A stretch of 22,858 nucleotides of DNA, taken from positions 1 to 22,858 of the IMG/VR virus record IMGVR_UViG_3300017986_000145; one strand, 5' to 3'. Positions 4,998 to 22,858 of the stretch are shown piece by piece (the stretch's first letter is position 1; every line of letters begins with the position of its first letter). The notes beneath the pieces were generated by a model. The model saw nothing but the letters and a program-made list of their open reading frames with translations, had not been told where the DNA came from and did not search any database. The stretch is from a virus. A program made the position numbers and the translations under genes.

Positions 4998-5231
4998 TCA
5001 GCGGATGTCCCCGTGTACCACCACATCAGCTGGCACACGGGAGATGGTGTAGCGACGGATTTGCTGGGAGAATGGGCGCCAGGCATCAACAGTCTCATTC
5101 ACCATACGATTGTGCTGACGATCGGCACCCTTGGCAGTCTTGCAGCGCTTTGCCTTACGGAAGTAGATGATGGGTTGCACTGCATCCTTGGTGTCGATCT
5201 CAACCTTGTAGAAAACGGTGCTGGTGCTCAT
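4998..5231 (-). CDS. Small basic protein, unknown function (77 aa)
   Basis: Encodes MSTSTVFYKVEIDTKDAVQP, then a basic stretch IIYFRKAKRCKTAKGADRQH, and ends VPADVVVHGDIR. AGGGAG lies 8 bases before the ATG and a TGCCCTATAAT element 25 bases before it, so expression signals are good. The basic centre might bind nucleic acid. Not recognised. Confidence 0.8.
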   Translation of the reverse strand: MSTSTVFYKVEIDTKDAVQPIIYFRKAKRCKTAKGADRQHNRMVNETVDAWRPFSQQIRRYTISRVPADVVVHGDIR

Positions 5232-5256
5232 AAGGTGTCTCCCTGTCGATGCTCTT

Positions 5257-5267
5257 ATTATAGGGCA
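5257..5267 (-). promoter_or_regulatory. Promoter element TGCCCTATAAT
   Basis: TATAAT at 5257-5262 preceded by TGCCC, 25 bases before ATG 5231. A weak -35 (GTCACA, 4 of 6) is 17 bases upstream, and AACCGTCCTG lies 28 bases upstream (5291-5300). Confidence 0.65.
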
Positions 5268-5299
5268 TCAGGAGCGCCGTGTGACGGAACCAGGACGGT

Positions 5300-5719
5300 T
5301 CAATGACTGGCACAGTACAACTTATACAATTCTTTCTCTTTAGTATATGCTTCAATCTCATGCGGTTGGTTTTCATAATCCCAGTTTGATGCCAACTCTT
5401 TGTGCCAACACATCTTACCGTGCTTCACTGTCAACGAACCCTCCACCCATTGTTTTACATGAATCAGTTCATGTATCAGTGTCTGTATATACTCTTCTCT
5501 GGACAGGTTAGATTGAATCTCAATCAAAAACTTGCGCGGACGGTTCATGTTGTACCTAGAAATATCACACCATCCATTGACATTATCACGTACCATTCCG
5601 CGATGATTGACATTAATGGTGATGTGATGTCTGGGAAAATGGGTATTCAGAAACCAAGAGGTAATATCCTCACAGAGCCTCTTAGAATAACCATATCCAT
5701 AAGTGAAGATGCTAGACAT
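5300..5719 (-). CDS. HExxH (SprT-like) metallopeptidase (139 aa)
   Basis: ATG 5719 with GGGGAAC directly upstream is the start; a longer frame begins with TTG. Residues 81-91 read LIHELIHVKQW, the HExxH motif (H83, E84, H87). NQPHEIEAYTKEKELY (117-132) supplies a likely third metal ligand (E121 or E123). Length and order fit the minimal SprT/M48-like zinc peptidase core found in phages. The target is unknown. A second, shorter HExxH protein lies at 3647-4033. The stop is followed by AACCGTCC, part of the promoter cassette of the next gene. Confidence 0.85.
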   Translation of the reverse strand: MSSIFTYGYGYSKRLCEDITSWFLNTHFPRHHITINVNHRGMVRDNVNGWCDISRYNMNRPRKFLIEIQSNLSREEYIQTLIHELIHVKQWVEGSLTVKHGKMCWHKELASNWDYENQPHEIEAYTKEKELYKLYCASH

Positions 5720-5770
5720 GTTCCCCAATGTAGAAACCAGACGAATGAACTAATGAAAAGAAGTTTCTCT

Positions 5771-9656: not shown

Positions 9657-9860
9657 TCAAGCACCTTCATCTGATAGGTAATGTTCTAATTGATTAATTC
9701 TATTGAACTCTTGGTATGCTGCTTCTGAACGAGAGTGCAGAACATCCCGAATGTCGTCCATAATGACAGTAGGATCTACATAGTCGTCAAGGTACTTATC
9801 CAGTGCTTCCTTCAGGTAGCGTCTTCTATGCCACTCTGGGGAATAGGGTTTGTAATCCAT
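9657..9860 (-). CDS. Conserved cyanophage small protein (67 aa)
   Basis: Frame open from 9911, but a consensus promoter (TTGACA-N17-TATAAT) lies within the first codons, and ATG 9860 sits 22 bases after its -10 box, the spacing seen for other genes. The start is therefore MDYKPYSPEWHRRRYLKEAL. The MDYKPYSPxWHRxRYLKEAxDKYLDD pattern is one I recall from cyanophages. Helical and acidic (DDYVDPTVIMDDIRDVL). Function unknown. Confidence 0.82.
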   Translation of the reverse strand: MDYKPYSPEWHRRRYLKEALDKYLDDYVDPTVIMDDIRDVLHSRSEAAYQEFNRINQLEHYLSDEGA

Positions 9861-9876
9861 AACAATGCTGTATTTG

Positions 9877-10032
9877 CTATCTATTATAGCGGTTCTGATT
9901 TTCATTGTCAAGCTCTTTCAAGTAATCAATCCACCACTGAGGATCTTTTTTCCTCTTCCAATTTGGTACTGGCAATCCTAATTCAGAGTAATGTTCAAAG
10001 AGTGCATCATCTATAATCTGTGCGATCTCCAT
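9877..10032 (-). CDS. Small protein, unknown function (51 aa)
   Basis: ATG 10032 follows a purine-rich GAGGAAGAGGAGT, so the longer frame (10140) inside the upstream gene is rejected. It encodes MEIAQIIDDALFEHYSELGL, then PVPNWKRKKDPQWWIDYLKE, and ends ENQNRYNR. The final codons contain the consensus promoter of the next gene, so its terminal residues may be shaped by the promoter. Confidence 0.8.
   Translation of the reverse strand: MEIAQIIDDALFEHYSELGLPVPNWKRKKDPQWWIDYLKELDNENQNRYNR
9883..9911 (-). promoter_or_regulatory. Perfect sigma70 promoter TTGACA-N17-TATAAT
   Basis: Minus-strand TTGACA (9906-9911) and TATAAT (9883-9888) with exactly 17 bases between, the consensus on all twelve hexamer bases. 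It lies entirely within the 3' end of the gene at 9877-10032, and ATG 9860 is 22 bases beyond the -10. Confidence 0.8.
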
Positions 10033-10219
10033 ACTCCTCTTCCTCTTCATCAACATCTGCATATGCATCTGCCAAATAGGGTCCGTGTGGTTTGAGTGAT
10101 TCATCTTTGACATGTTTCCGCTCCTGATTAATAGCAGCAAACCACAGTGCCAATTTCATTACCAACCAAATAACTGCCAGTGGTAGGAAACATAATGATA
10201 CTACAAGTGCGTTTTTCAT
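10007..10219 (-). CDS. Small membrane-anchored acidic protein (70 aa)
   Basis: Encodes MKNALVVSLCFLPLAVIWLV then MKLALWFAAINQERKHVKDE. Residues 4-29 are one membrane helix or an uncleaved signal, followed by a polar tail ending in EEEEEYGDRTDYR. Its C-terminal codons supply the ribosome site of the next gene. Function unknown; a membrane or envelope role is an inference. Confidence 0.8.
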   Translation of the reverse strand: MKNALVVSLCFLPLAVIWLVMKLALWFAAINQERKHVKDESLKPHGPYLADAYADVDEEEEEYGDRTDYR

Positions 10220-10234
10220 TACACTGAAAGGACA

Positions 10235-10444
10235 TCACTTTTTATCTATGACATCATTATACTCTGAAAAATTAAATTCGTTAGGAATAAGTTGATTCGC
10301 TAACTTATCTCTCAATTCATTGATTCTACTCTCATCATACTGACGAAAGCGTTCCACTTTCTCTACTTTCTTATAGTAGTGCAATGCATTTACTATAATC
10401 GTATAATCTTCCATCGACAATTGGAAGTCAAAGTTTTCATTCAT
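10235..10444 (-). CDS. Small helical protein, unknown function (69 aa)
   Basis: Encodes MNENFDFQLSMEDYTIIVNA, then LHYYKKVEKVERFRQYDESR, and ends SEYNDVIDKK. The start resembles the 4190-4408 protein in pattern (short strand, E, II..AL, helix). Overlaps the upstream gene as ATGA, so it is likely coupled to it. Confidence 0.82.
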   Translation of the reverse strand: MNENFDFQLSMEDYTIIVNALHYYKKVEKVERFRQYDESRINELRDKLANQLIPNEFNFSEYNDVIDKK

Positions 10445-10680
10445 AACATGTTATTCTCTGACAAGAAATGTAGTGTTTCTTTCATATCACCAATATGAAC
10501 ATTATCAATAGAAACTTGTGGATAGGTTGCCTCTTCACCAAACTCTTTGGTGAATGCCTTTTGATCGAAGTGTTCACCTAGTTTATACTCATGAAATTCA
10601 TCACCAAGTGCCTTGAGCAGCATACCCATCCGCTCACACTCTTGACTTCCGTTGCTATAAATTACCGCCGTATTAGTCAT
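10441..10680 (-). CDS. Glutaredoxin-like thioredoxin-fold protein, altered active site (79 aa)
   Basis: The N-terminus VIYSNGSQECERMGMLLKAL (6-25) matches strand-loop-helix of glutaredoxin. The cis-proline signature is TYPQVSID (52-59) followed by HIGDMKETLHFL (62-73), like TVPQIFIDGxHIG in true glutaredoxins. The active site CPYC is replaced by SQEC (S12 to C15): only the second cysteine remains. A dithiol reductase is therefore doubtful; a monothiol-like, redox-sensing or binding role is more likely. Length fits the single-domain family. It overlaps its neighbours at both ends. I recall similar NGSQECERM proteins from cyanophages, so the change is inherited rather than a sequencing error. 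Confidence 0.85.
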   Translation of the reverse strand: MTNTAVIYSNGSQECERMGMLLKALGDEFHEYKLGEHFDQKAFTKEFGEEATYPQVSIDNVHIGDMKETLHFLSENNML

Positions 10681-10826
10681 TTCTGTTCGTAATCGTATTC
10701 AATGACAATTTTCTTGTGCTTGCTGGTTCTATCAGAACACTCATAATGTTTGAGTTCACCACCAATATCCTTTGCAATCTTCTCCAGTCTCCACCCTATA
10801 CTCCATGTTGGATGTTCACTTTGCAT
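10677..10826 (-). CDS. Small protein, unknown function (49 aa)
   Basis: ATG 10826 has GGAG shortly upstream; the longer frame begins with TTG inside the neighbour. It encodes MQSEHPTWSIGWRLEKIAKD then IGGELKHYECSDRTSKHKKI and ends VIEYDYEQK. The ending (KKIVIEYDY) resembles the KIVMEYDN strand of the protein at 6228-6617, perhaps by chance. Function unknown. Confidence 0.8.
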   Translation of the reverse strand: MQSEHPTWSIGWRLEKIAKDIGGELKHYECSDRTSKHKKIVIEYDYEQK

Positions 10827-12212: not shown

Positions 12213-13031
12213 TTAAATTGGCAACCGTGCCATCCGCTGCTCCACTCTCCGCATGGCAATATCGTAATACTTTTCATCAATCTCAAAACCGATGAAGTTT
12301 CTATCACTCTCCATTGCCATTGCAGCAGTGGTGCCTGCTCCCATGAAAGGATCGAGCACTAAATCACCCTCTTCACTCCATGTTTTGATGTGATCTGTGG
12401 CAAGTGCCTCAGGATACATTGCAGGATGCTCAAAAGCATAATTATCCTTTGTTGTAAATCCTTTGCCATTGTTGTAGCGCCAGATATTATTACGAGGAGA
12501 ATATGCAGGAGTTGGCTTTTGCTTACGTTCGACAAGGTTGCCATCCTTGTCACGATAAGTTCCCTTACCCCAGTTAGTATGTCCTGCCCACTTGTTTGGT
12601 TTATCGGCAATCAGATTTGCAGTCTTTGGTTTCACCCTCTTACTGAAGACAAACATGTATTCAAAGATTTGAGAATACCGATTGCTGTCCTTTCTTGCGG
12701 GGAAAGAACTACCATTCTTCTCATAAATCATGGTGTCATGAAGAAGAAAACCCAACTCTCCAAAGTATAGTGCCTGACGGAATGATGACATACTTTCACC
12801 ACCCTTGATGACTGCATCACCAACAACCCATACAACTACACCACCAACTTTCATCACACGATACAACTCTTGTGCGACTTGTTTGAATACTTCAAAGTCC
12901 CACTTGGATGAATCGTTATAAGTTCTCAAGTCATCATAGGGAGGTGATGTGACACATAAGTCCACAGACTCTGCATCCATCCGTTGCATCCCAGTGATAC
13001 AATTTTCCTTGTAAACTTGGTTGATTTCCAT
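12213..13031 (-). CDS. Beta-class DNA methyltransferase (N4-cytosine or N6-adenine)
   Basis: 272 aa. TSPPYDDL at residues 28-35 is the catalytic (D/S)PPY motif IV, and DPFMGAGTT at 227-235 is the AdoMet-binding motif I. Motif IV before motif I is the beta-class order, with the target-recognition part between them (including KPNKWAGHTNWGKG near the middle). SPPY fits N4-cytosine slightly better than N6-adenine, but sequence alone does not decide. No restriction nuclease is adjacent, so it is an orphan enzyme, probably protecting phage DNA from host restriction or marking it. The DEAH helicase gene lies just upstream. A TATAAT box lies 23 bases before the ATG. I recall close relatives in cyanophages. 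Confidence 0.93.
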   Translation of the reverse strand: MEINQVYKENCITGMQRMDAESVDLCVTSPPYDDLRTYNDSSKWDFEVFKQVAQELYRVMKVGGVVVWVVGDAVIKGGESMSSFRQALYFGELGFLLHDTMIYEKNGSSFPARKDSNRYSQIFEYMFVFSKRVKPKTANLIADKPNKWAGHTNWGKGTYRDKDGNLVERKQKPTPAYSPRNNIWRYNNGKGFTTKDNYAFEHPAMYPEALATDHIKTWSEEGDLVLDPFMGAGTTAAMAMESDRNFIGFEIDEKYYDIAMRRVEQRMARLPI

Positions 13032-13054
13032 GAAAAGAGAGTTGGGTATCCTAC

Positions 13055-13073
13055 ATTATAGCACACATGTCAA
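13055..13073 (-). promoter_or_regulatory. Extended -10 promoter element with TTGACA 7 bases upstream
   Basis: Minus-strand TTGACATGTGTGCTATAAT. It matches the element at 6810-6828 in 17 of 19 bases, including the stop codon of the upstream gene inside TTGACA. ATG 13031 is 23 bases downstream. Confidence 0.6.
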
Positions 13074-14236
13074 CGGCGGACAACCGACACTGCTGCCTCA
13101 CCCCGCTCAAACACAGTGTCTACGACTGCCTGAACGCTCCGTGCGGTGCTGATACCCACCTTGTCATAAACAGGCACGCAAACCAGTCCAAACGTCTTCT
13201 CAGCGCCTCCCAGACGGATGACACGCCCGATTGACTGACTGATACCGATATAATCCATGTTACGCATGAACAACACAGCTTCTAGTCCCTTAACATTGAT
13301 GCCTTCAGACAGAATAGAATGATGCAAAACAACAAACTTTTTGTGTGAAGTGCGTCCCCAACTGTTCAGAGTGGCAAAGAATACATCACGAGTAACTTTC
13401 TGTCCGTCAATCACAGCACCAGTCTTACTGGTAATATACATGACAGAATAACCACGATGTTTCATTTGCTGAGCAAAGTCAGACTGTGAAATCAATTGAG
13501 TAATCTGCTTTGTAGAGCGAGCACAGACAAGAATCTTACTAAGAGAGTTGTCATCAATAGTCTCAAGTAGATTCTGTGAATCACTAAGTTTGAAATCACC
13601 CTGAGGCAATTCCTTGACAACAACCTTAGGAGGAAGAATATAACCTTCTTCTACCAACTTAGGAGCAGGAACATTACAAATGACATTGCCATAAACCTCT
13701 CCGTCATTCATGCCTGGTTTGAATACAGTCAGTGAGTGCTTAGGCGTAGCAGTAAAGAAGTAAGCACGACTAGAGTTAGCACTGAAGAACTCAGTAGCAG
13801 GAAAGAAATTGCGCTGACAGGAGTTATGTGCTTCATCAAAATAAATGGTATCTACGTTGATACCTGCCTCTTGAATACGATGCAGAGAGTGATAGGTAGT
13901 AAAGATTAGTTGGTGAGCACCAAGATCCTTACAGATAGTGTTGTAGTAACTGATATAATCGGGTTTAGTAGTGCTACGATGCTTAGTCTCACCACTATGA
14001 ACGTGAAGAGCGTTCACATCATCAATAAGTTCTAAGAACTCGGAACAGAGTTGATTCGCCAACAATATACGAGGAGCAACAACAACAATAGTCTTAGGAT
14101 TGTTACTCTGTAGTTCTTTCTTAGCATCTTCAATCATGCAAATTGTCTTACCACCCCCAGTGGGGATAATAATCTGCCCTTTATCATGCACCAGCATGGC
14201 ATCCAGAGCAGTCTGCTGGTGTGGGCGGAGTTGCAT
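13070..14236 (-). CDS. DEAH-box (superfamily 2) helicase/ATPase
   Basis: 388 aa from ATG 14236, which has GAGGAA upstream; a GTG one codon earlier is less well placed. Motifs: LRPHQQTALDAM (3-14), Walker A PTGGGKT (25-31), VVVAPRILLA (51-60), DEAH (134-137), FTATPKH (161-167) and QSIGRVIR (334-341, motif VI). This is the two-RecA-domain core of SF2 translocases related to type I/III restriction subunits. It is shorter than T4 UvsW and lacks its N-terminal domain, so I do not call it UvsW. Cyanophages carry such a gene beside a methyltransferase, as here. The role is unknown: recombination, repair or defence. It begins 23 bases after a TATAAT box. Confidence 0.93.
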   Translation of the reverse strand: MQLRPHQQTALDAMLVHDKGQIIIPTGGGKTICMIEDAKKELQSNNPKTIVVVAPRILLANQLCSEFLELIDDVNALHVHSGETKHRSTTKPDYISYYNTICKDLGAHQLIFTTYHSLHRIQEAGINVDTIYFDEAHNSCQRNFFPATEFFSANSSRAYFFTATPKHSLTVFKPGMNDGEVYGNVICNVPAPKLVEEGYILPPKVVVKELPQGDFKLSDSQNLLETIDDNSLSKILVCARSTKQITQLISQSDFAQQMKHRGYSVMYITSKTGAVIDGQKVTRDVFFATLNSWGRTSHKKFVVLHHSILSEGINVKGLEAVLFMRNMDYIGISQSIGRVIRLGGAEKTFGLVCVPVYDKVGISTARSVQAVVDTVFERGEAAVSVVRR

Positions 14237-14259
14237 CACTTCCTCATTACGATAAACAT

Positions 14260-15779: not shown

Positions 15780-15786
15780 TATTTAT
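15780..15786 (-). promoter_or_regulatory. Late-type promoter candidate ATAAATA
   Basis: Minus-strand GATAAATAAC, 13 bases before ATG 15766, overlapping the stop codon of the giant gene. T4-type late genes have TATAAATA. The distance to the ATG is short. Confidence 0.5.
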
Positions 15787-18700
15787 CGGATTCTTATAAT
15801 GTAATATAATCCCATATATGGTGGAAGGTTTGCATCAGTTCCAGAAGAACCTTGACTATTAACAGTCACACTGTGATTGTGCCCAGCGTGGGTGGAAGTG
15901 TTACCACCATTGGCAGCATAACCAGAACCAAACTGAACATTGTTGCCACCAAATCCAACGTTACCACCAATAGAGTGGTTGTGTATACCACCAGTGGCAG
16001 TGCTTGCTGTATGAGTGTGTGACACCACTATAGCGTCTTTGCTACCACCAGTTCCACCCTGACTATAATCATCACCAGCACCAACAGGGAATCTATTTTG
16101 TAAGTTTGGTAGGTTGAAGGTGGTTGAACCATCACCAGATCCATATGTGGTTCCCAAAATCGTGAACAAGTTAGCGTATGTTGTTCTTGAAAGTGCCGCA
16201 CCATTGCACTGTCTCCATGTTGCTGTGGGCCAGCTATCTGTTCCACCAGGCCACAACATGATGCTTCCAATTGGTGATATGTTTGGAACATCCAATTCAT
16301 CGGCAGTAATCTTTCCAGTTGCCTCAAAGTCACCATCAACTTCTGTATGTGTTCCGATGGCAACTTTATTGCCAACAGGAGCATCAATCTTCAAATCACC
16401 ACTGGTAGAATTAATTGTACTTGTGCTTCCATTAATGGTAACATCACCCGCAGTTATGTTTGCTGCTGTTATTGTCTTACCAACACCAACTCCACCAGTA
16501 ACTATGAGTGCTCCAGTTTTAGTGCTGGATGAATCAGTCTCATCAGTAATTCTAACCTGATCGTTGAATCTTGTATTGTTATTGAATGTGACGGGTCCAT
16601 CAAACTGTGATAAGAGTTGATTAGAAGCTCCACCCTCAACTACAAGATTATTCTTAATAATAACTTCATCAAAGACTACACTGAGTGTAGCAGGATCTTG
16701 TCCAGTGACTGTTGGGATTGGCGTATCAAATGTGATTTCTTCACCAGTTGCAGAAGACTTCTTCTGGTTACCAACAAAGAAATCACCTTTGTTGTTCATA
16801 CCAGTGTATACTACAGTACCACCAGCTCTTTCTTGTGCCTGTGTTAAAAACTCTTCTGTTTCAGTTGGTGCTCTATCCTGAAGTTGAGGAAGTCCAGTAG
16901 AGTAGTTACCAGGACCGAAACCAAGATATTCAAATGTATGTCCAGAAGCACGAACGATTGAAGGTCTACGGAATTCAATTGAAGGAACTTTTATCTTCTT
17001 GATTAAAGAACCATTGACGTGTGCTGTCTGTCTAGAACCAAGTGCTCCACGAATAACGGTGAGTTCATCACTATTCAAACCACTAAGAGTGCTGCTAGCA
17101 ACTCTCATGATTTCATTATCAATTTGAATGTAAGAACCAAGTGGGAATCTGGTTGCAGTTCCTAACCCAACATGACTTACAGAGAATGCTGTATCTGTTG
17201 TTGTTACTGCTTCAGATAGGGTTAAAATATCCCCATCAAAGATGGTAATCGCTCTTGCCTCAAGATTTTCATTTCCAACATTAGAATCGCCAGAATTAGA
17301 GGATAAACCGTGCTTCAGAATGAATCCAGAAGTGGTACTAATTCCAGAACTAATTGTGAATGTAGAGATACCAACTTTTGTCGCAACAATAAAATCACCA
17401 AGATTATTGTTCTCGGTATCAAGAACTCTAAACTTATTACCAACAGTCAATCCATGAGGTTCACCTGATGTGAATGTGCTGATACCACCAGAAGACGTTG
17501 CAGTAAATGCTTGTGATGGAGAGACAACCAGTGCATACTGATCTGCAGTGATGAGTGTATCACCTGCAGTCTTAGCGATGGAAATCTGATTAGCGGCAGG
17601 AACTGAATTGATACGATAGTAGGTATCTGATGTTGTTCCAGCACCAGTGAACTGAACTACTTGTCCTATAGAAGTTGTAATACCACCAGTGGAGACTGTA
17701 ACTTCAGCACCAGAGAATCCATCAATGTCTAATACTTCACCAGCAGCATATCCAGAACCTGGAGATACAATAGTTGCAACACCAACAGCACCACCCGAAA
17801 CATTAATGTTTGCTGTGGCACCATCCCATGTAGATGTTCCATTGTTTAGCAGTTTTACGTTAAAGTGATTGCCGTTTGCAAATCCACTTCCTGCATTTGT
17901 AACACTTACATCAACAATACCATCCAATCCATGTCTTCTATCGAAGGTAATTGTGGTAATACCAGGAGTGGCATTGTTGACTGAGGAAATATCAAGTCCA
18001 ACTCCAAATTTTGTTAGAAGTGTATCAGACGCTTCTCTAGTAACACTCTTCTTAAGATCGTTAGTTGTGACATCTCCAAGTGGAGATCTTAGAGCGAATG
18101 ACTTAGCAGAATTTGGATTATCATTAATGTTATCTCTATCCAATTGTGGATACAAGTCCACGACATTCTGACTATATTTTAAGTCAGTAAATTCTACAGG
18201 AACTGCACTATCAGCTTTCAGAACATAGAGATGATAGATGCCATTTTGTTCTCCATCATCATACTCAGAAACCACTTCATTTCTGTAAATATTAAGGTTG
18301 GCTTTTAAGTCAATTCTATCAAATCTTGGAAGAGATGTGGTTCTCTGTGTGGTGTCATTTGTAAATGTACCAGGGGTTCTAGTGCTCAAAGCATACTTAA
18401 AGGTTAAGTCATCAGTAATCTCAGTGACTGTAAACTTACCATTATATCCCTTATTAAAGTCTCCAGTGCTGCTCAGTGTGCTATCAGTGACATTTCTGAT
18501 ATTGACATCATCACCTAAAGTAAGGTTGTGAGGTTGTTCAGTAATAACCGTTACAACATCAGATGAGAATGAACATGTGCTAATGAATCTTGGATTTCTT
18601 GAGAAATCGTAATCTGTAGAATCAATAGAAGTTTTAGTAAAATCAGCGTCTGTTCCGAATCCAGTTGTGCTAGATTCTTGGATGATAAATGCTGACTCTG

Positions 18701-21065
18701 GTGTTTTTGAGTTTGAAAGTTGTTTTGGAATAACAACTCTATACTTGTAAATCTTCTCGTCTAAACTTCTGGTATCAGCAATTCTCTTGACGAAGGTTGC
18801 CTCCGAAGCACCAGTCCCTGAGAGATTACTAAAGATATCACTTCCAGTGTTGGTGTTAATATACCAATGATTATTTGTGGAGTCCCACTGCACTGGACTG
18901 CCAACATCTCCCGATTCTTTATCAGAAACTCTAGTTGTAATTGTGAGATTAGTTCCACCATAAACGGTAATGGCATCATCATTGTTTGCATCAGATTCAG
19001 ATGATGCTAACTTAAGTTCTGTGGAAGACTCGCGAATTGCATAGTAAACCTTATTTACTTTAATATTCTCTGGCATATCGCCATCGTCACTAAGGACGAT
19101 AACCTTTTCAGCAGTTTGAATATCATGTGTTCCAGATGAAATTGTAAATACGTTAGAAGATGGAGCATCTACAGAATATGTCTTAAATGAGGATGAACCA
19201 TCCTCCATTAGGATATCCGCAGAGTAAGTTGTTGAACCAATGGATAGGTAAAGTTTATCTTCTTTACGAGCACCAATTCGATATCCCTGTGTTAAGACAA
19301 CAGGCTTAACCTCTTCATCTTCAAATCCAAATAGATACAGGTGACTGGTGATACCAACGGTTGTTGTCTTACCTCGATCTATAGTCACCCAATCAACATT
19401 CTCTTCTGAAGCAGTGATTGCTTTTGGTGGAATAACGTGTGTGAGGAATGCCTTATTATCCTTGGCAAATGCTTCTGCCTTAAATCCATCAGCAATAAGT
19501 GCTAATTGTCCAAAGTTAGAGTTAGAGTTGGTGATAGATGCGTCACCACCGGATTGTATGTCAAAGTGCTTATTGTAACCAATAGCAAATACTGATACAA
19601 TTTGCAGAATTGCATCATTTGAAATCTTAATGTGAGAACTTTCCCATCCAGATCTATAAATGGAGTCTGATTCTAAGTGATAGACTCTTCCACTAGATGA
19701 AGAACCTGCCGATAAATCAGCACCAGTTACTTTTGATGTGCTGAGTGTACTTGAATATGTACGAGTTGATGGAATATATTGTACGAACGCTCTATCATCC
19801 TTTTGTAGGGATACACCGGTGAACTGAGCCACAACCATTGAACGGAATCCAGTTGCCTTACTTCCGTCAGCGTGCATACCCTGCATACCCCATACAGAAC
19901 GCATGGAGATATTAAAGATATATGGTGATGCTCCAGTTACAGTATCAGTCTCTACGGTGACTAATTCGTCGCCAGAAATAGTTCCTGGTGTCTGTAGAGT
20001 GACAGGAAAAGATTCTAAGTTATAATAGAATACTTTAGTATTTGTTGCATCAACTTCTGCAACCTTTGTTGAAATATTATAGTTGGTTGGAGATACACCA
20101 CTGATACGAATTGGTGTGCCTGTAGTAAGGTTATGATCTAATGCAGTGGTAACAGTAACTCTATTGGTTGGTGTTCCACCTGAACCTGCTTCGATAGAAG
20201 TAATCTTAAGAGGATCTGATGCAAATGCACCAACAATCTCATATTCTGGGCGTTGTGGTTCAAACCCTTTTGGTTTAGCAGGAAACTTATCATCAATATC
20301 TCTATCAGTTCCTGTACCATATGCGATGGATAACTTCGCATAATACATTTCAAGATCAGTCAGTTCTGTTGAACCAACTTTATTAACACCATCAGCATAT
20401 TCAAATACTGTTAGTTTGTGGTGAGAGAAGTTAGGTACAGACTGAATAGTAAAGTCATCAGACTGTGTATAAACAAGTCCAAACTCATCACCATCAAAGA
20501 CACAGAACTGCCAGAAGTAGCATGTACCTGTGATTCTAAAGATGGCAGAGTAATCTACATCATCATCAGTTGGGTTTGGAACATATTTTGGTTTAATCTT
20601 TGTCTTTCTTAAGTCAAGTCCAACGATAGATGTACCGCGAGGTACAATAACCCCACCGTAAATACTGTTGAACTTAATTAAGTCATTACCTTCTTGTGTT
20701 ATATCAAAATTAGAATCAAGTGTTAGTGGTAAATGATCTGCTGCTGCCGCATTGCTGACGCTACCATCCGCCGCAGTTACTTTTGCACCACTATCATTGA
20801 AAATCTGATATCCTGGGCGGTTATCAATCTCATGAACACCAGGCATCAAGAGAATCGTGGTTTTCTCTATCGCATCATTGGCATTCCCCTTAACATATGA
20901 GAATCTTGCTGCCTCAATCAGTGCTCTCTGAATGGTTTTAAAAGGACGAGCAAGAGAGTTTCCAGTGTTTAAAATACTGTCAGTTGAATCTAAATCCGCT
21001 GGACTTACATATAGAATTCTACCTTCAGTGTTCTTAATAAAGTTGTCTAACTTATTCAGAGGCAT
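15783..21065 (-). CDS. Giant fibre/baseplate protein with C-terminal tail-collar domain (1760 aa)
   Basis: The largest gene here, 5.3 kb. The N-terminus (MPLNKLDNFIKNTEGRILYV, then NSLARPFKTIQRALIEAARF at 35-54 and TILLMPGVHEI) is the pectate-lyase-like parallel beta-helix start I recall from cyanophage structural proteins. The middle is a long beta-rich, low-cysteine stretch with VTTALDHNLTTG-type repeats. The C-terminal ~160 residues are a phage tail-collar domain (T4 gp12-like/microcystin-dependent-protein family): PIGSIMLWPGG starts at 1598, with CNGAALSR and FNLPNLQNRFPVGAG. Three HxH motifs follow (HTH, HNH, GHNH), as in metal-binding fibre tips. It ends YYIIRIR. An adhesin or receptor-binding role is inferred. 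A CATAAATA element lies 32 bases upstream. Confidence 0.92.
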   Translation of the reverse strand: MPLNKLDNFIKNTEGRILYVSPADLDSTDSILNTGNSLARPFKTIQRALIEAARFSYVKGNANDAIEKTTILLMPGVHEIDNRPGYQIFNDSGAKVTAADGSVSNAAAADHLPLTLDSNFDITQEGNDLIKFNSIYGGVIVPRGTSIVGLDLRKTKIKPKYVPNPTDDDVDYSAIFRITGTCYFWQFCVFDGDEFGLVYTQSDDFTIQSVPNFSHHKLTVFEYADGVNKVGSTELTDLEMYYAKLSIAYGTGTDRDIDDKFPAKPKGFEPQRPEYEIVGAFASDPLKITSIEAGSGGTPTNRVTVTTALDHNLTTGTPIRISGVSPTNYNISTKVAEVDATNTKVFYYNLESFPVTLQTPGTISGDELVTVETDTVTGASPYIFNISMRSVWGMQGMHADGSKATGFRSMVVAQFTGVSLQKDDRAFVQYIPSTRTYSSTLSTSKVTGADLSAGSSSSGRVYHLESDSIYRSGWESSHIKISNDAILQIVSVFAIGYNKHFDIQSGGDASITNSNSNFGQLALIADGFKAEAFAKDNKAFLTHVIPPKAITASEENVDWVTIDRGKTTTVGITSHLYLFGFEDEEVKPVVLTQGYRIGARKEDKLYLSIGSTTYSADILMEDGSSSFKTYSVDAPSSNVFTISSGTHDIQTAEKVIVLSDDGDMPENIKVNKVYYAIRESSTELKLASSESDANNDDAITVYGGTNLTITTRVSDKESGDVGSPVQWDSTNNHWYINTNTGSDIFSNLSGTGASEATFVKRIADTRSLDEKIYKYRVVIPKQLSNSKTPESAFIIQESSTTGFGTDADFTKTSIDSTDYDFSRNPRFISTCSFSSDVVTVITEQPHNLTLGDDVNIRNVTDSTLSSTGDFNKGYNGKFTVTEITDDLTFKYALSTRTPGTFTNDTTQRTTSLPRFDRIDLKANLNIYRNEVVSEYDDGEQNGIYHLYVLKADSAVPVEFTDLKYSQNVVDLYPQLDRDNINDNPNSAKSFALRSPLGDVTTNDLKKSVTREASDTLLTKFGVGLDISSVNNATPGITTITFDRRHGLDGIVDVSVTNAGSGFANGNHFNVKLLNNGTSTWDGATANINVSGGAVGVATIVSPGSGYAAGEVLDIDGFSGAEVTVSTGGITTSIGQVVQFTGAGTTSDTYYRINSVPAANQISIAKTAGDTLITADQYALVVSPSQAFTATSSGGISTFTSGEPHGLTVGNKFRVLDTENNNLGDFIVATKVGISTFTISSGISTTSGFILKHGLSSNSGDSNVGNENLEARAITIFDGDILTLSEAVTTTDTAFSVSHVGLGTATRFPLGSYIQIDNEIMRVASSTLSGLNSDELTVIRGALGSRQTAHVNGSLIKKIKVPSIEFRRPSIVRASGHTFEYLGFGPGNYSTGLPQLQDRAPTETEEFLTQAQERAGGTVVYTGMNNKGDFFVGNQKKSSATGEEITFDTPIPTVTGQDPATLSVVFDEVIIKNNLVVEGGASNQLLSQFDGPVTFNNNTRFNDQVRITDETDSSSTKTGALIVTGGVGVGKTITAANITAGDVTINGSTSTINSTSGDLKIDAPVGNKVAIGTHTEVDGDFEATGKITADELDVPNISPIGSIMLWPGGTDSWPTATWRQCNGAALSRTTYANLFTILGTTYGSGDGSTTFNLPNLQNRFPVGAGDDYSQGGTGGSKDAIVVSHTHTASTATGGIHNHSIGGNVGFGGNNVQFGSGYAANGGNTSTHAGHNHSVTVNSQGSSGTDANLPPYMGLYYIIRIR

Positions 21066-21107: not shown

Positions 21108-21749
21108 TTACGAAATAACGTAGTTTCCAGAAACAGAAATTCTATATTCATCAGAAGTATAGAATGGATAAACACAATGATTGACGGTTGCAGGAAAAAT
21201 AAAAGCACAACCTTCCATTTTCCTATCAGTTGGAATTACTCTTTGCACAATATCACCTAGAGTATTTGTGCAAAAATATGCAAAATGTCCCGCACACTGA
21301 TAATTAGATTTTCTTGAATGTGGTTGTACCATTTCATCCTCAGTATCATAAGGATTTTTTAACCATATCACAAAACTAAAAATACCATTATGAGAATGAA
21401 CTGGATTAAATTCTGTTTTCTTTTGAAAGACTGCCCATGTTTGAACTAAGTTTAGGAGATATTTTTCACCTTCAAACTGCCTTCCAATTCTAGTTGCATA
21501 ATCAAATGTCTTTGTGTGACTCTCAACTATAGGTGTCAATAGTTTATCAATTGATTCTCTAATTTCCTCTGGCAAAACAATTTGCCTTTCAATGTTTCCT
21601 GCTAGTCTGATATTATTAGACTCGTAATTATCGAAATCCTGTTGAATCTTATCTACGGCATCATATAGAAATTTCAAATCATCCTTCTCAAAACGAACTA
21701 AAATTCCACCATCAATTTCAGGTTGTAATATTTGTGCTTCAACTTTCAT
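21108..21749 (-). CDS. 2OG-Fe(II) oxygenase-like protein (213 aa)
   Basis: The C-terminal half has the double-stranded beta-helix pattern of 2-oxoglutarate oxygenases: NPVHSHNGIFSFVIWLKNPY (115-134, H118 and H120), then FPATVNHCVYPFYTSDEYRI (185-204, H191 and R203), followed by SVSGN. H...H...R gives the metal and 2OG ligands; the usual HxD has become HxH or HxN, so the ligand set is uncertain. I recall the same signature in cyanophage proteins annotated as 2OG-Fe(II) oxygenases near tail-fibre genes. The N-terminal half is helical. It may modify a virion protein, lipid or nucleic acid. The ATG follows the preceding stop directly. Confidence 0.82.
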   Translation of the reverse strand: MKVEAQILQPEIDGGILVRFEKDDLKFLYDAVDKIQQDFDNYESNNIRLAGNIERQIVLPEEIRESIDKLLTPIVESHTKTFDYATRIGRQFEGEKYLLNLVQTWAVFQKKTEFNPVHSHNGIFSFVIWLKNPYDTEDEMVQPHSRKSNYQCAGHFAYFCTNTLGDIVQRVIPTDRKMEGCAFIFPATVNHCVYPFYTSDEYRISVSGNYVIS

Positions 21750-22055
21750 TTAACCCATCAAATCCTCTTCATTATAATCGTACTCTTCCTCCTCTGGCAT
21801 GTCTTCTGGATTCTCAATATCCATCATGAACAGACAAGGGTGTGCTTCTTCATCTATTAGATAAAAAGAAGACTTATACAAATCATTTGGTTCATAAGAC
21901 AAATTCTTGTTTGCAAACTCTATCAAATCTCTGTCATATAAGTGTCCAATGGGTAGCTCATCAAAAGTAAATGGTACTCCCTGAATAAAATACATCTTGA
22001 CTATCCTACTGTCGTTTTCATACCAGCAGAATGCAGTCTCTATCTTATATGACAT
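21750..22055 (-). CDS. Acidic protein, unknown function (101 aa)
   Basis: Encodes MSYKIETAFCWYENDSRIVK onward. The C-terminus is very acidic (NPEDMPEEEEYDYNEEDLMG). The middle HLYDRDLIEFANKNLSYEPN and SSFYLIDEEAHPCLFMM suggests an alpha/beta fold. The stop is followed at once by the ATG of the oxygenase-like gene, so the two are likely coupled. An ATAAATA element lies 18 bases upstream. Confidence 0.82.
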   Translation of the reverse strand: MSYKIETAFCWYENDSRIVKMYFIQGVPFTFDELPIGHLYDRDLIEFANKNLSYEPNDLYKSSFYLIDEEAHPCLFMMDIENPEDMPEEEEYDYNEEDLMG

Positions 22056-22081: not shown

Positions 22082-22858
22082 TTAAGTCCTGTCAATCATT
22101 TGTATAGTCCTAACCAATACTTCTAAACCGTTGATACACATCTCATCAGTGGTTTTTTCTTTGGGAGAATGACTGATACCACCGATAGATGGAACAAATA
22201 TCATACCCATAGGACAGAAGTTAAAGTTTTGTGCGTCATGTGATGCTCTTGATGGCATACGAATTGCTTTCAAGTTCAAATCACGACTTGCGGCATCAGC
22301 AATGAACTGCTTGATTTTACCATTGCACAGTGCAGGTTCAGACTGGTGGATGAGCTCATATTGTAAATTAAACTTATCAGTAACGTCTTTAACAAACGCA
22401 TCCATAACAGATGCATCCAAATCTCTTACCTGCAATGTAAAGTCTACCCTGCCAGGTACAACACTAAAAGCGTTGGGACTGACATTAAGCACCCCCACAG
22501 TAGCCACCAAACCGTCATGTTCTAATGCCCTCTTGTTAATGTAAGTGATAATCTCTGCTGTCTTTACCAGTGCATCATCTCTCATATCCATGGGAGTTGT
22601 GCCTGCATGGTTCTCTTGACCATATACAGTAATAGCACAGCGTCTTTGTCCTACAATACCCTGAACGACACCAATATCAAGTTTTTGAGAATCTAATATT
22701 GGTCCTTGTTCTACGTGCAATTCTAAGAATGCTTTGATATCAGGTTTGCTAGAAGTATAACCCTTAGAACCTTTCATTGTATTCTCTTCGTCACGGAAGA
22801 TAACAACTTCTAGTGGGTGCTTCAACTTACCTTTCAGCATCCTTGCTGCCTCTACACC
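22082..22858 (-). CDS. M20-family N-carbamoyl amidohydrolase (allantoate amidohydrolase-like), 5' end cut
   Basis: 258 C-terminal residues are present; the frame stays open to the window edge (GVEAAR before the first ATG at 22840), so the true start is outside. Motifs: FRDEEN (catalytic Glu and metal Glu), FLELHVEQGP (metal His), GQENHAGTTPMDMRDDA (dimer-domain His/Arg), PNAFSVVPGRVDF, SRASHDAQ and GGISHSPKE (second metal His). The family hydrolyses ureido/carbamoyl groups (allantoate, ureidoglycolate, N-carbamoyl amino acids, beta-ureidopropionate) to release ammonia. The string DIKAFLELHVEQGPILDSQK resembles E. coli AllC, but SRASHDA differs from its SGAGHDA, so substrate is open. From the DEE motif to LELH there are only about 20 residues, well short of the spacing I recall. 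All visible key residues are kept. A nitrogen-scavenging host-metabolism gene is likely. Confidence 0.9.
   Translation of the reverse strand, partial: GVEAARMLKGKLKHPLEVVIFRDEENTMKGSKGYTSSKPDIKAFLELHVEQGPILDSQKLDIGVVQGIVGQRRCAITVYGQENHAGTTPMDMRDDALVKTAEIITYINKRALEHDGLVATVGVLNVSPNAFSVVPGRVDFTLQVRDLDASVMDAFVKDVTDKFNLQYELIHQSEPALCNGKIKQFIADAASRDLNLKAIRMPSRASHDAQNFNFCPMGMIFVPSIGGISHSPKEKTTDEMCINGLEVLVRTIQMIDRT

Follow-up and report, generated by a model that had tools for sequence, protein, structure and literature searches.

The 22,858-nucleotide viral contig analyzed here (IMG/VR record IMGVR_UViG_3300017986_000145, referred to as the window) ends within a gene that we consider likely to encode a phage-adapted member of the M20 N-carbamoyl amidohydrolases with cyanobacterial origins. 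The new features are the phage-specific loss of a two-helix insert, the replacement of a conserved Asn by Ser, the single clade formed by the phage copies, and the occurrence of the gene in three genome contexts. By analogy with characterized relatives, the enzyme very probably hydrolyzes an N-carbamoyl compound with release of NH3 and CO2. Its substrate is somewhat more probably an N-carbamoyl-L-amino acid, such as carbamoyl-glutamate, than a purine ureide, and we tentatively suggest that the benefit to the phage may be a supply of nitrogen or amino acids.

The minus-strand ORF at 22082–22858 represents the 3' 258 codons (residues 84–341 of 341) of a gene of the M20 hydantoinase/carbamoylase family. 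The virus record stops at this point, which leaves the ORF open at the 5' end. The identical stretch, together with the rest of the gene, is present in five other IMG/VR contigs. The complete gene is found in contig L005 (positions 9752–10777), where the overlap with the window is identical; it encodes an intact 341-residue protein with all of the catalytic residues, and its ATG start overlaps the stop codon of an ORF for an HNH endonuclease. The recovery of the full gene advised in the first-pass annotation was achieved with these identical overlapping contigs, and the whole 341-residue frame rules out a truncated or frameshifted gene. The features of the enzyme and of its neighbors, in full-length numbering, are collected in Table 1.

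Table 1. Features of the M20 gene and adjacent genes in the window
Feature	Position	Strand	Evidence or remark
M20 carbamoyl-amidohydrolase gene, residues 84–341	22082..22858	(-)	ORF and Pfam; cut at contig end
DEE motif, catalytic Glu107 and metal ligand Glu108	22784..22792	(-)	Sequence; conservation
Shortened 20-residue segment	22724..22783	(-)	Segment counts; structure models; two short host-enzyme helices absent
ELHVEQG, metal-ligand His131 and carbamoyl-orienting Gln134	22703..22723	(-)	Alignment; Gln196 of Rhizobium enzyme (PMC10952681)
His167, dimerization domain, HAGTTPM motif, invariant	22607..22609	(-)	Alignments
Ser215, phage-specific, at the N-[VI]-[VI]-P position where the family has a conserved Asn	22463..22465	(-)	Alignments
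Arg228, equivalent of substrate-carboxylate Arg291/Arg292 of characterized carbamoylases	22424..22426	(-)	Alignments; PMC10952681, PMC10107544
His313, equivalent of Rhizobium enzyme His385	22169..22171	(-)	Alignments; PMC10952681
101-aa cyanophage protein of unknown function, phrog_4134, M20 neighbor	21750..22055	(-)	Profile match
2OG-Fe(II) oxygenase, phrog_81, M20-region neighbor, separate from the enzyme	21108..21749	(-)	Pfam and phrog match

The position of the gene at the extreme end of the contig and its cyanobacterial relatives might point to a misassembly, or to host DNA instead of phage, a reading whose probability is negligible. It is refuted by the identical stretch in the five other contigs, by the phage genes on both sides of the gene in L005, by a homologue in Synechococcus phage S-B68, a cultured cyanophage, and by the absence of the short form from all host genomes sampled (386 cyanobacterial and 201 of the picocyanobacterial family). 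The phage carriers comprise this one isolate in the collection searched and 26 or 27 IMG/VR contigs, and the proposal of a cyanophage carrier, specifically a T4-like phage of the Synechococcus type, is supported.

The protein from the window matches the Pfam families Peptidase_M20 (PF01546) and M20_dimer (PF07687). The NCBIfam hydantoinase/carbamoylase model TIGR01879, with a curated cut-off of 204 bits, scores 217 bits with the partial ORF and 290.5 bits with the full-length protein, and the other two full-length phage proteins scanned also exceed the cut-off (282.9 and 315.8 bits). Among 19 PDB sequence matches, 18 are chains of carbamoylases, AllC, UAH/ureidoglycolate hydrolase or beta-alanine synthase, or unnamed amidases of the same family. 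A Foldseek search with the phage model gave Geobacillus stearothermophilus L-N-carbamoylase (3n5f) as the best match (E 3.8e-39, TM 0.86), and the first 38 matches all belong to the carbamoylase family, after which the score falls to generic M20 enzymes with DapE, aminoacylase and YxeP folds. The initial assignment to the M20 carbamoyl-amidohydrolase family is therefore borne out. None of the NCBIfam equivalogs was reached by the phage protein, all scores being below the respective cut-offs, and the substrate is therefore not readable from the sequence.

The alignment with relatives that had been recommended allowed the catalytic residues and the spacing between the DEE and ELHVEQG motifs to be compared in phage and bacterial proteins. 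The residues His65, Asp76, Glu107, Glu108, His131 and His313, together with the substrate residues Gln134, His167 and Arg228, are invariant in 12 phage proteins and in a set of 46 phage and bacterial proteins. In the Rhizobium enzyme, the equivalents of Glu107, Gln134, Arg228 and His313 have been assigned to orientation of the carbamoyl group and to a salt bridge with the carboxylate, the substrate-binding Gln and Arg being Gln196/Arg291 and the counterpart of His313 being His385 (PMC10952681), and in the Sinorhizobium enzyme the Arg is essential to substrate recognition (PMC10107544). The invariant residues and the intact frame agree with the earlier view that the product is a likely active hydrolase.

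Exactly 20 residues separate the DEE (22784–22792) and ELHVEQG (22703–22723) motifs in the window, and the segment has 20–22 residues in all 22 phage proteins, one of which is 5'-truncated and a few of which are identical to each other. In the 61 bacterial proteins measured, taken from the best 80 bacterial matches listed, it has 56 residues in 48, 57 in nine and 50–61 in the rest; picocyanobacterial relatives have 56, with 64 in two loci, and alignment gives ~61 residues between DEE and ELHIEQG in 3n5f. The spacing of about 20 residues against roughly 60 noted at first reading is thus confirmed, nearly all measured bacterial homologues having 55–57. When 386 cyanobacterial genomes and 201 genomes of the picocyanobacterial family were searched with the phage protein, no listed match was in an open frame shorter than 414 residues, and in the latter set nearly all matches break in two at the point of the insert. 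A short segment that is normal for a bacterial subfamily, the alternative that had been foreseen, is absent from these genomes and from the best 80 bacterial loci, the scan patterns being derived from the phage alignment. In the samples searched, it is the phage clade, and no bacterial subfamily, that is marked by the short form, in accordance with the suggestion of a streamlined phage form. No forms of intermediate length were found in other viral contigs. A few other viral M20 carbamoylase-type genes (L221–L225) are distant and of the long form; three of them, in viral contigs of 135–145 kb (L223, L224 and L225), have an EESAWFG motif and are unrelated to the cyanophage clade.

The AlphaFold2 model of the phage protein has a pLDDT of 96.2 and a pTM of 0.90, and the core is predicted to be well ordered and to close without the insert. 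In the model of the host (Synechococcus) enzyme, two helices (residues 173–179 and 184–190) lie between the DEE helix and the following strand; in the phage model, helix 112–117 runs directly to strand 126–132, and both host helices are gone. The phage form is accordingly predicted by the models to lack a two-helix insert of ~36 residues that adjoins the DEE helix. The phage proteins do not have the two-helix segment of ~55–60 residues of the family but still exceed the cut-off of the curated TIGR01879 model and thus represent a variant form.

A second change is found in the dimerization domain. The Asn of the N-[VI]-[VI]-P motif is present in 19 of 19 cyanobacterial and 14 of 14 other rows of the alignment, and in all 47 host matches that were readable at this column in a further comparison, but is replaced by Ser in 13 of 13 phage proteins. 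This is a departure within the family at a column conserved in these alignments and is not a published defining feature. The Asn at this position presumably lines the substrate pocket. Together, the loss of the insert and the Asn-to-Ser change probably alter the range of substrates, the closure of the domains or no more than the size of the gene, and the loss of 36 residues combined with the substitution might lower or redirect activity.

These two changes, the absence of the insert from all phage copies and the Ser where every host row has Asn, could also indicate that, once the insert was lost, the enzyme drifted from decarbamoylation toward an activity of M20 enzymes at large (aminoacylase, deacylase or peptidase). 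Segments about as short occur in other M20 enzymes, for example carboxypeptidase G2, and the DapE, aminoacylase and YxeP folds are the next group in the structure search. However, the carbamoylases are far closer in sequence and fold (E ~1e-31 or better versus 1e-19 or worse), and the Arg that binds the carboxylate and the Gln that orients the carbamoyl group are invariant, so that such a drift appears improbable in comparison with retained N-carbamoyl hydrolysis.

A tree of 59 proteins places the phage proteins in one clade (support 100/99), separates phages and cyanobacteria from other phyla (100/98), and unites the cyanobacterial enzymes with support of 97/93; the bacterial set was drawn from the best 80 matches listed in a scan with patterns from the phage alignment, and long branches and rough bootstraps were flagged by the program. 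A separate tree gave a similar grouping. The construction of a tree with bacterial and phage homologues, also advised at the outset, has therefore yielded a single phage clade beside the cyanobacterial enzymes. Phe127, Val132 and Arg287 are common to phages and cyanobacteria as against most or all other bacteria. The stem of the phage clade is long (0.9 changes per site), which indicates either an old transfer or fast evolution and does not point to a particular donor. As far as the sequences indicate, this is a genuine auxiliary gene that came from cyanobacteria long ago.

The phage copies are found in three contexts: (i) between tail genes beside a cluster of tRNA and HNH genes (the window and L016–L027); (ii) between the sliding clamp and clamp loader genes (L008 and L028–L033); and (iii) downstream of primase/mazG in the isolate S-B68. 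The location beside late virion genes described in the first-pass annotation applies to the window, with a tail fiber gene at 15783–21065, and to L005, where proteins of the tail-collar type are encoded upstream of the M20 gene, but not to the gene in general, which adjoins replication-type genes (sliding clamp/clamp loader and primase/mazG) elsewhere. ORFs resembling the phrog_4134 neighbor also follow the M20 gene in L016, L017, L019 and L020. The 2OG-Fe(II) oxygenase gene of the window is situated between the phrog_4134 neighbor and the tail fiber gene; in the majority of the other viral loci it is not seen beside the M20 gene. In L005 (9118–9375) and L016 (5711–5984), the M20 gene is flanked by genes for tRNA-Ile/Met/Leu and by ORFs for HNH endonucleases. 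In L032, between the sliding clamp and the clamp loader, the second gene upstream of M20 (5145–5480) encodes a phage SpeD-like S-adenosylmethionine decarboxylase. Elsewhere in the window, an N6/N4 DNA methylase gene adjoins a DEAD/ResIII-type helicase gene downstream of the tail genes (12213–14239), and a protein resembling SprT-like zinc metalloproteases, slightly below the Pfam cut-off, is encoded at 5300–5728.

The tRNA/HNH cluster between tail genes is an apparent insertion hotspot in T4-like cyanophages. The gene might thus be a passenger, acquired from a host, that travels with HNH homing endonucleases in the tRNA hotspot without a selected function in the phage. The tRNA-Ile/Met/Leu genes and HNH ORFs that adjoin the late-gene context are consistent with this, as is S-SKS1, the isolate nearest to the window, where the first site is occupied by tRNA-Leu and no M20 gene is listed. 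In contrast, of the 16 pairs of phage copies usable for dN/dS, 15 give values of 0.06–0.13 and one gives 0.23, the frames are intact, the catalytic residues are invariant, and the gene is maintained in two other contexts that have no adjacent HNH gene. Purifying selection and the several contexts are a strong argument against a decaying passenger, and this explanation is largely refuted and very unlikely. As judged by selection, the phage copies are functional. The gene combines cellular ancestry, location in phage genomes, an intact frame and purifying selection, which are among the properties expected of cyanophage auxiliary metabolic genes.

The first reading of the sequence proposed that the enzyme could free ammonia from allantoate or from products of purine or pyrimidine breakdown. 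The phage enzyme would then be an allantoate deiminase or a ureide hydrolase, in keeping with several well-scoring NCBIfam models named allantoate amidohydrolase (NF006771, 327 bits) and with the alignment of E. coli AllC (2imo and 1z2l) at a TM of ~0.90. However, the score with the AllC equivalog TIGR03176 is 220.5 bits as compared with a cut-off of 597.75, and the other allantoate equivalogs failed too. Because the close, full-length host relatives also fail the AllC equivalog (273–282 bits), the deletion is not the reason for the failure of the phage protein. The corresponding host gene cluster has ATCase-like and asparagine-synthetase-like genes and no obvious purine-catabolism gene in the flanks examined. 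A role in allantoate or purine use is thus not specifically supported, and we consider it unlikely. The model for N-carbamyl-L-glutamate amidohydrolase ErtE (NF058540) is the second-best family model for the protein of the window (306 bits) and the best for the host protein of L037 (422 bits), the equivalog cut-off being 520 bits.

The picocyanobacterial cluster encodes an ATCase-like carbamoyltransferase, a glutamine-dependent asparagine-synthetase-like protein, a full-length M20 carbamoyl hydrolase and a DUF1028 protein (L050:669–5857, L037, L044, L052 and L118–L135); in Cyanobium-like genomes it also includes a GMC oxidoreductase gene. A literature search found no paper describing this cluster. 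Its ATCase-like, AsnB-like and DUF1028 genes suggest that a carbamoylated amino acid is the substrate of the host enzyme, and, by extension only, of the phage enzyme. There is also a small chance that the phage protein is a minimized enzyme in which the lost insert and the changed residue produce activity with a substrate used by no characterized member of the family, for example a metabolite of the host ATCase-like/AsnB-like/M20/DUF1028 cluster, so that the phage would tap or cancel an undescribed host nitrogen pathway.

Under the preferred assignment as an N-carbamoyl amidohydrolase, family chemistry suggests that the protein would act as a dimer. His65, Asp76, Glu108, His131 and His313 would hold two divalent metals that activate water, and Glu107 would be the base; apart from the equivalents of Glu107, Gln134, Arg228 and His313, the individual roles of the metal and catalytic residues are those generally known for the family. 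Gln134 would orient the carbamoyl group and Arg228 would hold the carboxylate of the substrate, and hydrolysis would yield NH3 and CO2 together with an amino acid or a comparable product. During infection, the enzyme may supply amino acid and ammonia, or clear carbamoylated metabolites, in Synechococcus-type hosts, most of which would be without the gene. A homologue at E 1e-20 is present in 34 of the 201 sampled genomes of the picocyanobacterial family, which means that the activity brought by the phage may be missing from many possible hosts; the actual host is known for S-B68 only.

These results add a carbamoyl-nitrogen hydrolase to a set of cyanophage genes that is dominated, in the literature found, by genes for photosynthesis, carbon, phosphate and cofactor metabolism. 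They also draw attention to an uncharacterized picocyanobacterial cluster that combines carbamoyltransferase-like, asparagine-synthetase-like, carbamoyl hydrolase and DUF1028 genes. The structural change is a clean one, the loss of one subdomain and one substitution, fixed in the whole phage clade; because the family has many crystal structures, it can be tested directly how specificity responds when a phage shrinks a gene. The gene had been thought to be outside the known cyanophage repertoire. This is incorrect in that the S-B68 copy is already annotated in GenBank as an N-carbamoyl-L-amino acid hydrolase (QBP06029.1), a name that fits the family, but holds in that searches of the literature for a cyanophage carbamoyl or allantoate hydrolase, or for the S-B68 gene, found no paper discussing it; in papers that set S-B68 against other cyanophages, the tally of auxiliary genes is low and the M20 gene goes unmentioned.

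The S-B68 protein (353 residues) belongs to the same phage clade as that of the window, with which it is 55–56% identical, and has the 20-residue segment and Ser at the Asn position. Its gene, unlike that of the window, is in the replication region near primase/mazG and not beside tail genes; the G+C content is 53% for the gene and 51.7% for the genome. No further S-B68-like copies were found in IMG/VR with patterns from S-B68. The closest cellular relatives among the matches listed are cyanobacterial M20 "Zn-dependent hydrolases" (Synechococcus CPC35, L037; Prochlorococcus, L050; Cyanobium, L052), which are ~41–48% identical to the phage protein over the aligned stretch and share AF-x-ELHVEQG and, usually, PSRA-x-HDAQ with the phages. 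They differ from the phage proteins in the 56-residue segment, the Asn and the length of 425–460 residues, and their genes belong to the operon-like cluster, whose ATCase-like, AsnB-like and DUF1028 genes are not present in the phage loci. E. coli AllC has the same family membership and fold, whereas the phage protein has the short segment and falls below the AllC equivalog cut-off; it is likewise below that of ErtE, in spite of the rank of that model. The best solved match by both sequence and fold is 3n5f, which is 34% identical in the fold alignment and differs in its longer segment and conserved Asn, but has the same catalytic set as the phage enzyme.
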